NCBI RefSeq assembly: GCF_003112435.1 | Contig: NZ_BDOQ01000019.1 | Location: forward strand, 124,001-188,000 | Direction of reading: 5' to 3' | Length of the DNA: 64,000 bases | From: Novimethylophilus kurashikiensis | Lineage (GTDB): Bacteria > Pseudomonadota > Gammaproteobacteria > Burkholderiales > Methylophilaceae | Part shown: positions 45,333-62,962 of the stretch, in pieces | How positions within the stretch are numbered: the first letter of the stretch is position 1 | How the letters are laid out: the number at the start of each line of letters is the position of its first letter | Made by a program: the position numbers and the translations under genes | Notes under the pieces: generated by a model | What the model was told of the DNA's origin: nothing | The model's input: only the letters and a program-made list of their open reading frames with translations | The model's database searches: none

Positions 45333-45576
45333 TAAAAGCCGAGGAAACTCGGCTTTTGTTTTTTGTGCCGGGGGTAGCCCGGCGGCTAGTTCCTTTATTT
45401 TGCTTGTCCAAAATAAAGGAACCAAACAAAAAGACACCCCCTGCCGCGGTCCTTCGGACTTCCTTGCGCTGCGCGCCAAGCCGGGCGGCTGCGGAACTCG
45501 GGCTTTCGGCCCTCAGACAGTCCTCGCCGAAAGCCCCCGGCTTGGCTGTGCTGCTCAGCGCGGCAGAGGGGAGTTT
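45333..45576 (+). ncRNA. Structured ~244 bp repeat element, copy 1
   Basis: Nearly the same sequence and order of hairpins recur at 62186-62424. Parts: AAGCCGAG-GAAA-CTCGGCTT; CCGGG-GGTAG-CCCGG; a 14-bp stem GTTCCTTTATTTTG/CAAAATAAAGGAAC (45389-45402 with 45409-45422); then nested stems GCCAAGCCGG/CCGGCTTGGC (45475-45484, 45537-45546) and GGGCTTTCGGC/GCCGAAAGCCC (45500-45510, 45526-45536) around the loop CCTCAGACAGTCCTC, identical in both copies. The 14-bp stem differs between copies by compensatory pairs only. Probably a structured RNA or a mobile structured repeat; function unknown. It fills most of the 550-base gap between aqpZ and the pseudogene. Confidence 0.7.
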
Positions 45577-45711: not shown

Positions 45712-46366
45712 TCAGACCTTGCGTAGTAGCTCTTTGTCGAGTGACTCTATGACTGTTGCGGAAAGATAGTGAAGCGCTTCACCCTCAAGTACGGATATCT
45801 CTGCTTCTAGTGTTCCGGTTTCAAAGTGGAATACTTGTATTTGTACAGAGCCTTCACGTTCTTGCCAGACAAACGACCAATGGGCAAAGCCATTTCTAAC
45901 CTTGCGAAATAGGTCTGTATTGAAGGCATCACGTGCACTTGCAAGTAATGGAAAACTTGAATAGGTGGACTTGAGCACCGCTGCGAGTGGTGAAGGTGCT
46001 TGCTTGAGAAGACGTCCAAGCGGTCCGTCTAGTAGCAGAAAAGTTGGTAGCCATCGAGCAAGATGTTGGCCGCGACGAGCCAATACATGTAGGGATGGTT
46101 GAGCTTGCTCCCACTTAACACCTGCTGAGAAAGCCAACTGTGTGAGAACTGTCTCAACAGACTGGACAATAACAGGATTTGCTTCAAGGTAATTGGCCAG
46201 TTGTGAGCGGAAATTTAGATCGGCAAAGAGCTGCTGGCACTGTTTAATGAGTTGATCTCGTGGAGACTACGCAAGTAGACCAGGCTGATGCAATGCCTTT
46301 CGCTTGAAGCAGCGCGAAGAGCATGCGGTCGATATTTTCTTTTGAGTGAGTTTCAACCTGCCTCAT
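45712..46366 (-). pseudogene. Frameshifted hypothetical gene
   Basis: From ATG 46366 the frame reads MRQVETHSKENIDRMLFALLQAKGIA and runs out in an unrelated tail. A second frame without a start, open after a TAG near 46270, reads DQLIKQCQQLFADLNFRSQL and continues to 45712 (ending SLDKELLRKV). Joined, they give a protein of about 210 residues, cytosolic and helical, of no family I recognise. The frame changes around 46262-46285. Codon and base composition are more AT-rich than in neighbours, consistent with acquired DNA. It may be a decayed gene or contain a sequencing error. Confidence 0.6.
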
Positions 46367-62185: not shown

Positions 62186-62424
62186 TAAAAGCCGAGAAAT
62201 CGGCTTTTTTATTTGCCGGGGGTAGCCCGGCGGCTAGTTACTTTCGTTTGCTCGCCCAAACGAAAGTAACCAAAGGAAATGGCACCCCCTGCTGCGGTCC
62301 TGCGGACTGCCTTGCGCTGCTCGCCAAGCCGGGCGGCTGCGGAACTCGGGCTTTCAGCCCTCAGACAGTCCTCGCCGACAGCCCCCGGATTGGCTGTGCT
62401 GCTCAGCGCGGCAGAAGGGGATTT
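62186..62424 (+). ncRNA. Structured ~239 bp repeat element, copy 2
   Basis: Second copy of the element at 45333-45576. The 14-bp stem reads GTTACTTTCGTTTG/CAAACGAAAGTAAC (62237-62250 with 62257-62270) with loop CTCGCC; compared with copy 1 three base pairs changed on both arms together. The first hairpin is one pair shorter (GCCGA-GAAA-TCGGC), the CCGGG/CCCGG hairpin is unchanged, and the final nested stems have three mismatches, so this copy may be decaying at its 3' part. It lies in the 466-base gap between convergent mnmA and the Rap1a-like gene. Confidence 0.7.
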
Positions 62425-62483: not shown

Positions 62484-62540
62484 GTAGGGCAGGCGGCCTC
62501 GCCTGCATTTTTCGATAGCAGATGAGGCCGCCTGCCCTAC
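62484..62540. repeat. Inverted GC-rich repeat pair
   Basis: GTAGGGCAGGCGGCCTC and GAGGCCGCCTGCCCTAC, a perfect 17-bp pair around a 23-base centre. Same family as 62963-63027, 49425 and 57115. It lies 33 bases beyond the stop of the Rap1a-like gene. Confidence 0.75.
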
Positions 62541-62573
62541 GAGGAGAGCGGACACTTTGTGTCTTTCCAAGCG

Positions 62574-62942
62574 CTATTTACCCTTCTCCCCAGGGCACGT
62601 CATCTTGTCCAACAGCGCGCGGTACATTGCAATACTCTTGAGTTCCTTCTGATCTTCCTGATGTTCGCCCAGGTGGTCGACGACGGCTTTCAGCACTTGG
62701 CGTCTGGAGCGTTTTTCAATGTCGCTGCAGATTTGCGGGCTGCCTTCGATTTCCTTTTTGAAGCGGTAGCCTGAGATGTAGCCGTCGATATAGCCCATGC
62801 AGAGGCCGAAGGCGAGGTCGTTGCGTTTGGCGGGGTCGGCGGCTTGTTTGCATAGGGCGTATAAGTCCTGCCCGGTTTCGAAGTTGTCGGCTGATGCTAT
62901 TTGCGGCAGTAGCAGGGCGAGTAGCCAAATCCAGCGGTTCAT
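62574..62942 (-). CDS. Rap1a/Tai-like secreted protein
   Basis: 122 residues from ATG 62942, AGGACC upstream. Signal peptide (MNRWIWLLALLLPQIASA), then FETGQDLYALC, LAFGLCMGYIDGYISG, QICSDIEKRSRRQ and a C-terminal MTCPGEK. This is the Cys-rich helical layout of the Rap1a/Tai immunity-like family. Family members neutralise type VI amidase effectors in the periplasm, but many orphan copies exist, and no effector or T6SS gene is in the window. It is flanked on both sides by the GC-rich inverted repeats. Confidence 0.7.
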   Translation of the reverse strand: MNRWIWLLALLLPQIASADNFETGQDLYALCKQAADPAKRNDLAFGLCMGYIDGYISGYRFKKEIEGSPQICSDIEKRSRRQVLKAVVDHLGEHQEDQKELKSIAMYRALLDKMTCPGEKGK

Positions 62943-62962
62943 GCGCAAGGTCCTGTCATTTG

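Follow-up and report, generated by a model that had tools for sequence, protein, structure and literature searches.

The two intergenic elements described here are best explained as arms of a non-autonomous foldback repeat that would act at the RNA level via a triple-helix pseudoknot, a reading to which we assign a probability of roughly 0.5. They lie in a 64,000-nucleotide stretch of the genome of Novimethylophilus kurashikiensis (hereafter the window). Sequence comparison establishes a repeat family with paired arms, present or absent at given sites, in which a stem, a pseudoknot and a third strand covary and which is conserved in place. Transcript-end protection, the role that we favor, remains unproven, and the step from structure to exonuclease barrier is an inference.

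An earlier note on this DNA had placed the two copies at positions 45333-45576 and 62186-62424 of the window, in the same orientation and between likely genes, which the sequence confirms. Used as a BLAST query, copy 2 recovers copy 1 with 88% identity. RNA folding z-scores are -7.8 for copy 1 and -4.9 for copy 2, with none of 200 shuffled sequences folding as well, and copy 2 folded as DNA reaches a z-score of -6.6. The parts of the two copies, and the genes next to them, are the following.

45333..45576, - strand: copy 1, one arm of type A, the likely functional RNA being on this strand with its 5' end near 45576 (the earlier note had used the + strand)
45333..45358, no strand assigned: outer, terminator-like hairpin, seen in the fold, with T-runs on both strands and near the 3' end of the - strand RNA (no termination data)
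45367..45383, no strand assigned: hairpin 1 of copy 1 (GCCGGG..CCCGGC), seen in the fold
45389..45422, no strand assigned: stem S1 of copy 1, 14 bp, 45389-45402 with 45409-45422, loop 45403-45408, from covariation
45423..45431, no strand assigned: third-strand tract of copy 1, CAAACAAAA on the + strand, pyrimidine loop 1 on the - strand
45433..45436, no strand assigned: pseudoknot strand GACA of copy 1, pairing with loop TGTC at 45405-45408, from the family test and the sequence
45437..45573, no strand assigned: closing-helix domain of copy 1 (CCCC..GGGG) with a conserved GCGGAACTC / CAGACAGTCCTCGCC core, from fold and covariation
45712..46137, - strand: 141-aa open reading frame without Pfam match, on the strand of the proposed RNA, its stop about 135 bp from copy 1
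62186..62424, - strand: copy 2, one arm of type A, the likely functional RNA being on this strand
62215..62231, no strand assigned: hairpin 1 of copy 2, seen in the fold
62237..62270, no strand assigned: stem S1 of copy 2, 62237-62250 with 62257-62270, loop 62251-62256, from covariation
62271..62279, no strand assigned: third-strand tract of copy 2, CAAAGGAAA on the + strand
62281..62283, no strand assigned: pseudoknot strand GGC of copy 2, able to pair with GCC at 62254-62256 (three pairs only), from the family-wide test and the sequence
62285..62420, no strand assigned: closing-helix domain of copy 2, from fold and covariation
62574..62948, - strand: gene for a 124-aa Rap1a-family immunity protein (PF18602), on the strand of the proposed RNA, its stop about 150 bp from copy 2

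Between the two copies, positions 4, 9 and 10 of the 5' arm of the 14-bp stem differ and all three partners compensate, as had been claimed, and the reported drift of the 6-nt loop at two sites is also real (CTTGTC versus CTCGCC). The 15-nt segment described as a loop is, however, not wholly unpaired: in a consensus of 32 arms much of it pairs with GCGGAACTC, as it does partly in a consensus of 29 arms. In the third-strand tract of copy 1, a C facing a stem A corresponds to one G.U-A triple on the - strand. Beside copy 2 lies another inverted repeat (GTAGGGCAGGCGGCCTCGCCTGC..GAGGCCGCCTGCCCTACG, 62486-62541) that is unrelated to it, and a similar-looking stretch follows another copy of the repeat (C6b, locus L026).

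Alignment of many copies reveals how consistently the stem is kept. Among 56 diverse cores, 12 of the 14 S1 pairs change on both sides, 95.9% of the cells are paired (80.8% after shuffling) and 101 cells carry a double change (23.7 after shuffling). This core set (A2) was picked by eye, mostly from 96 de-duplicated scanner hits and with false hits excluded, and neither covariation cells nor sequence counts are independent events. At the third S1 pair from the base (GTCAC/GTAAC), Caballeronia and others frequently display a C.A on the + strand, that is, a U.G wobble on the other strand; on the + strand this pair is unpaired in 14 of the 56 cores. Compensatory pairs are also found in the closing domain among the 32 arms, and 16 of the 22 pairs in the 29-arm consensus, stem included, show a double change. 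Moreover, the S1 loop is complementary to a segment beyond the purine tract, with which it would form a pseudoknot. When each distinct loop is counted once, and taken together with one base before it and two after, 57 of 78 show complementarity over four or more consecutive bases, and the mean run is 4.28 compared with 2.92 after shuffling (sd 0.10; maximum 3.31 in 500 shuffles). The most extreme pairs are GAAGGGCC/GGCCCTTC and CCTTGAT/ATCAAGG. The proposal that selection acts on structure is thus upheld by covariation in the stem and in the rest of the arm, together with a pseudoknot and a third strand that the earlier note had not seen, and the absence of covariation among many aligned copies, which it had named as a refutation, did not materialize.

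The tract between the stem and the pseudoknot strand tracks the 5' arm of S1 base by base in a parallel register. In this register 95.1% of the cells match, against 85.9% after shuffling and no more than 69.6% when the register is slid, and there are 21 double-change cells versus 3.4. The weak point is the number of pairs with a third-strand double change, three out of four, which 116 of 500 shuffles also reach. Examples of a stem followed by its tract are TTTTCTTTG with AAAAGAAAG, TTTTCTTG with AAAAGAAG, and TTTCTCTTG with AAAGAGAAG. Alternatively, the tract (L3) could be a plain direct repeat in antiparallel pairing with the 5' arm, which gives 93.1% versus 90.6% after shuffling, with eight double changes. 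This form was rejected: after an S1 arm reading TTTTCTTTG, 15 of 16 L3 tracts contain AAAAGAAA and one AATAGAAA, never the direct form.

Read on the opposite strand, the 62 combinations of stem and tract give U.A-U in 370 of 386 cases and C.G-C in 60 of 66. At inverted pairs, U-A faces G in four of five cases, while C-G (n = 29) faces C in 14, U in 10 and G in 5. Triplets of the pyrimidine motif include G.TA and T/C.CG at inversions, which fits this table, and C.G-C triples require a protonated C. Allowed triplets make up 94.2% of the total, against 84.2% in shuffled data (maximum 88.1%), with the caveat that the allowed set was chosen after the data had been seen and that a number of third strands do not conform to it. 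The triple helix itself is an inference, drawn from sequence alone. Since stem and third strand change together, inverted pairs included, the putative triplet code is directly testable.

The tolerated mismatches bear on which strand works. On the + strand, 154 distinct S1 stems contain 67 C.A and only 10 G.U; the counts are 55 and 10 without the Caballeronia loop type, 32 and 4 for the loci from L182 on alone, two and zero for the window's genome alone, 16 and 6 when counted by contexts, and 72 and 40 in the arm helices. The + strand therefore tolerates C.A and hardly G.U, the reverse of what is expected from RNA, which makes the opposite strand the better RNA. The consensus energy is -115.7 on the opposite strand and -104.4 on the + strand, and in single folds the opposite strand has the lower energy in 27 of 32 arms. 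There, the pseudoknot strand and the pyrimidine loop 1 come first, followed by stem, loop and stem, which is the order of an H-type pseudoknot, a topology whose loop 1 follows the major groove of the second stem. We infer that the functional RNA most likely lies opposite the strand first read, running outward from the center of the unit, although no transcript has been seen.

Only two copies had been claimed, and while both are real, the number is too low: our core model (R1) identifies 16 full-length cores in the window's genome. BLAST with copy 2 returns 23 matches there, including partial ones and ones that fall on the reverse of a palindromic stem. The outer ends are of two kinds, type A consisting of the terminator-like hairpin plus GCCGGGGGTAGCCCGGC, and type B of ACCGTCGG..CCGAC, with two type B arms also exhibiting a terminator-like outer hairpin. 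Part of the copies in this genome form converging pairs, and on contig C3 two such pairs enclose one open reading frame each (42% G+C, versus 57% in the window), one of 228 aa whose SH3_3 match stays below the cut-off (L024) and one of 318 aa without a match (L025).

The repeat is not confined to this genome, so that a lack of copies elsewhere, which would have counted against the earlier note, can be dismissed. BLAST matches were obtained in 15 of 40 relatives, and R1 matches in 92 of 398 genomes of a phylum sample, the window's own included, with at most 14 candidates scored per genome; 46 of these 92 belong to one distant family (f51), have mostly weaker scores and were left uninspected. 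Among the matches listed for an exact 21-base core (at least 119 stretches, for one selected sequence variant, some in metagenome bins) are Caballeronia, Xanthomonas, Lysobacter, Thiobacillus, Selenomonas, Chitinophaga, Segetibacter, Desulfuromonadales and others. Close core variants occur in Ilyobacter (Fusobacteriota), Pasteurella, Pseudoalteromonas and Burkholderia. Ilyobacter has six cores of equal score, and five units there are mostly 90-97% alike over the longer aligned blocks. As judged by these matches, the core family reaches several bacterial phyla; in E. coli, no match to a 48-base core was found. Several contigs of two genomes (G263 and G245) stop inside or beside the repeat, and short-read assemblies may therefore undercount it. 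Carriage by phages was rejected, as copy 2 has no match in annotated phages; the exact pattern occurs on six viral contigs, which are uninspected. Carriage by mobilizable plasmids was likewise rejected, all 19 plasmid records with the element being typed as non-mobilizable.

Neighboring cores are commonly paired. Among the matches listed for the 21-base-core loci, 41 of 49 pairs of cores lying 250-800 bp apart converge, and in a single-contig genome (G424) each of the 12 cores belongs to one of six pairs. Core pairs elsewhere are often the arms of a 0.5-1 kb palindrome, at times with genes inside. Some palindromes are nearly complete (732 bp at 75% identity in L236, 616 bp at 72% in L224 and 960 bp at 82% in L245), and the other five units of G424 show 71-75% palindrome identity. 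In Pasteurella, a pair occupies the gap between dapF and a DUF484 gene, immediately past the dapF stop codon. Arm identity is 71-75% in the spacer-free palindromes L236, L237, L224 and L238 (82% in L245) and 91-97% where a spacer or cargo separates the arms (L232, L248 and L244), but only 73-85% in the spaced L024, L086, L270 and L271. Long perfect palindromes are perhaps counter-selected.

Comparison of orthologous sites indicates that the repeat comes and goes. Four genomes (G466, G453, G478 and G487) lack, at the orthologous site, a 728-bp unit found in G287, a member of their genus; at this one site examined, where the gap is poorly alignable, no target-site duplication was seen relative to the four empty sites. 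An intergenic locus in the genus of G361, order-level kin of the window's genome (L232, with orthologues L289-L301), is a hotspot with several states: G518 and G521 are without trace, G496 and G498 have remnants, and 25 listed genomes have two arms around a middle of 85-365 bp. In G361 itself, the PAAR and Tae4 effector genes of a type VI secretion system (T6SS; identified by Pfam) lie between arms that are 97.5% identical. G523, G499 and G500 carry DNA that matches this cassette at 74-83% at the same locus, where G511 has four DUF1120 genes and G512 a transposase of the Mutator family (IS256 type). At five other loci, the ~2 kb retrieved to each side of effector homologues contains no core, and the arms are therefore a docking place, not a proven vehicle. 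Elsewhere, a gene with a RelA/SpoT domain lies between inverted arms (L096) and a GNAT gene between two direct copies (L028). The Rap1a gene, which immediately precedes copy 2 on the proposed RNA strand, and the T6SS effector genes between the arms in G361 make a link between the repeat and effector-immunity genes possible. The alternatives left by the earlier note, a structured RNA, a mobile repeat or both, consequently hold in both parts, given the covariation and a dispersal with presence and absence at orthologous sites.

What moves the repeat is another matter. No recombinase of its own was found in long-spaced pairs, among the scanned open reading frames of L086, L096, L232, L270, L271, L295 and L296 (L102 and L165 were outside the scan). 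The Y1_Tnp domain (PF01797) was found by Pfam in eight of 12 element-bearing genomes and is absent from the window's genome (G000), G245, G407 and G165; a resident RAYT/IS200-type transposase, which had been put forward as a possible cognate enzyme, is thus not needed now. No mobilizer was found, and the best reading is that the repeat is non-autonomous.

Once in place, the repeat can be well conserved. At the G361 locus, compared in 13 distinct genomes of the 41 searched (minus, on the left side, one locus with a match shorter than 900 bases, whose genome was kept via another locus), identity in the left and right arms is 95.4% and 95.6% for the knot, 86.7% and 89.6% for the outer arm, and 85.5% and 86.4% for the inner arm. 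The corresponding values are 71.4% and 65.4% for the adjacent non-arm gap and 90.5% and 95.5% for the flanks. The knot at this locus could have been kept in a gene-like manner after insertion, or renewed by conversion between the arms.

As for gene neighbors, nine of the ten solo arms in the window's genome lie 3' of an open reading frame on the proposed RNA strand, according to a manual reading of the open reading frame lists; the lone exception is a truncated arm. The preceding frames include genes for alanine dehydrogenase, the exonuclease VII large subunit, LolA and, for copy 2, the Rap1a immunity protein, while several others are short or without family match. This bias fails in other genomes, where the inner gene points toward the solo arm in 14 of 28 cases and the outer gene in 18 of 28 (28 cores with long flanking open reading frames, the genes being the longest, unannotated frames, and degenerate partners being possible). 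A fixed 3'-UTR role is therefore suggested for the window's genome, not in general, and a single orientation rule for all solo arms was rejected. In three Selenomonadales bins (L068, L119 and L133), solo-looking cores lie 3-71 bases past a stop codon in an inward orientation, unlike in the window's genome. Palindromic units, of which 31 of the 41 converging pairs were kept and with genes again taken as the longest open reading frames, lie between co-directional genes in 21 cases, convergent genes in seven and divergent genes in three.

In the explanation that we favor, a full unit consists of two inverted arms of roughly 250-480 bp enclosing nothing, a short spacer or genes, and solo arms occur too, the window copies being examples. 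The outward strand of each arm would encode an RNA of ~200 nt composed of the closing-helix domain, the H-type pseudoknot and a hairpin, to which some arms in the window's genome, both window copies among them, add the terminator-like hairpin. In the predicted knot, the pyrimidine-rich loop 1 would lie along the purine strand of the long stem in up to seven to nine layers of U.A-U and C.G-C. A transcript crossing a paired unit from either side would carry the functional strand of the far arm, the palindromic form thus offering that strand to traffic from both sides. Near the 3' end of the RNA, the knot may slow 3'-5' exonucleases or mark the transcript end, which would favor the repeat, its cargo or the upstream gene. 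Besides the caveats on the counts given above, several points stand against this explanation: no transcript has been seen, the Rfam family RF02421, discussed below, overlaps the outer end only, the 3'-side bias of the window's genome fails elsewhere, palindromic units lie mostly between co-directional genes, and conversion between the two arms could account for their conservation in place.

Several other explanations have to be weighed. The folded arm might be a single-stranded DNA signal, recognized as an end by an HUH-type (IS200/RAYT-like) enzyme or another one acting on single-stranded DNA, without any RNA role. REPINs serve as recognition ends for RAYTs, and the features of a REPIN or IS200-type element, inverted structured arms plus solo arms, are present here, in a folded, conserved sequence whose DNA fold is also stable (z-score of -6.6) and which is present or absent at orthologous sites. 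Yet Y1_Tnp is lacking in four of the 12 genomes, even if a past enzyme could have been lost, the asymmetry of G.U and C.A favors RNA and one strand, the sequence is kept in place after insertion, and the functional strand is opposite at the two ends, unlike in IS200 ends. We consider this explanation unlikely but worth keeping in mind, and a DNA-level role in movement, beside action at the RNA level, stays open. An ordinary foldback or MITE-like DNA element, mobilized in trans by a transposase that acts on double-stranded DNA and with an RNA fold that is a mere by-product of the palindrome, would account for the long terminal inverted repeats (a MITE feature), the many intergenic copies and their presence or absence. 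Palindromy, however, does not make S1, the pseudoknot stem (S2) and the third strand covary within one arm, no target-site duplication was recognized at the one, poorly alignable site examined, and the sole transposase found between arms, that of the Mutator family in G512, is absent from orthologous units, which leaves this explanation doubtful.

It is also conceivable that the strand first read is the working RNA, with S1, an A-rich loop 3 crossing the stem through minor-groove contacts, and the pseudoknot strand. The covariation data are identical when read on the + strand, and an A-rich loop 3 is common in H-type pseudoknots. The 67 C.A against 10 G.U on that strand and its higher folding energy in 27 of 32 arms argue otherwise, as does the fact that minor-groove contacts are not expected to yield a base-for-base third-strand code; we find this strand assignment quite improbable. 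Finally, open frames do run across both copies and could be taken for members of a small-protein family whose reading frames pass through the repeat. These frames have no family match: for seven open reading frames across or beside the copies there is no Pfam match at E 1 and a single, chance-level NCBIfam match, nothing near the NCBIfam cut-off, so that, at this level only, the translated frame that might have undone the earlier note is not seen. Pairwise compensation and the third-strand code would remain unexplained, and we give this idea next to no credence.

If the RNA-level foldback reading is right, the repeat represents a widespread bacterial structured nucleic acid whose function is undescribed in the open-licence papers searched, and a natural library of base-triple variants. 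It would join repeat elements, RNA triple helices and cargo hotspots, which have so far been separate fields. It may also explain anonymous intergenic repeats in other genomes.

Among known systems, Rfam family RF02421 (Bp1_684, the Burkholderia sRNA candidate Bp1_Cand684_SIPHT) matches the outer ~100 nt of both L232 arms on the proposed RNA strand, scoring 59.2 and 51.1 bits where the cut-off is 44, in only one of 14 loci scanned. The window has no Rfam match at gathering level, RF02421 included; a known Rfam family for copy 1 was rejected after a permissive scan, whose three matches are all far below cut-offs. RF02421 covers only hairpin 1 and the last bases of S1, without pseudoknot, third strand, palindrome or repeat family, and Rfam thus holds only a fragment of the repeat. 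In the accessible part of the source, the Bp1_684 candidate is among those amplified by RT-PCR, is found in several phyla beside unrelated genes, and is treated as an sRNA gene (PMC3521395). Another partly accessible source describes R178 of Pseudomonas fluorescens, a dispersed intergenic repeat of 101 bp with an internal 11-bp inverted repeat (PMC2718517). R178 resembles our repeat in its intergenic dispersal and internal inverted repeat and may be kin to it, as far as that part of the source allows, the R178 sequence not having been compared. In the open-licence papers searched, we found neither the palindrome nor the knot nor the third strand described. With REP doublets (REPINs) and their RAYTs, the repeat shares an inverted pair of structured arms, solo arms, intergenic location and lack of autonomy; it differs in its arms of ~250-480 bp, compared with ~20 nt in REPINs, in lacking Y1 in four of 12 genomes, and in its RNA-strand signal.

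The closest likeness is to triple-helix H-type pseudoknots and ENEs, known from telomerase RNA and MALAT1/PAN and, for ENEs, from the RNAs of plant and fungal transposable elements. Features of such a pseudoknot found here are covariation of stem 2 (S1), pairing between loop and segment, and a third strand covarying in parallel under a pyrimidine code. Also shared, in the inferred structure, are a pyrimidine strand along a purine-rich stem, U.A-U and C.G-C triples, a loop 1 occupying the major groove of stem 2, and a 3'-proximal position. In contrast to ENEs, the repeat is bacterial, sits on a dispersed palindrome, has a long predicted triplex without a solved structure, and is without an A-rich tail as donor. 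Tentatively, and with more doubt than for the reading as a whole, it might correspond, in bacteria, to the triple-helix elements that stabilize eukaryotic transposon RNAs and viral RNAs: a palindromic repeat, selfish or domesticated, spread across phyla, which would guard the 3' end of through-running transcripts with a major-groove triplex of up to seven to nine layers and whose center would be a dock for cargo such as T6SS effector-immunity genes.
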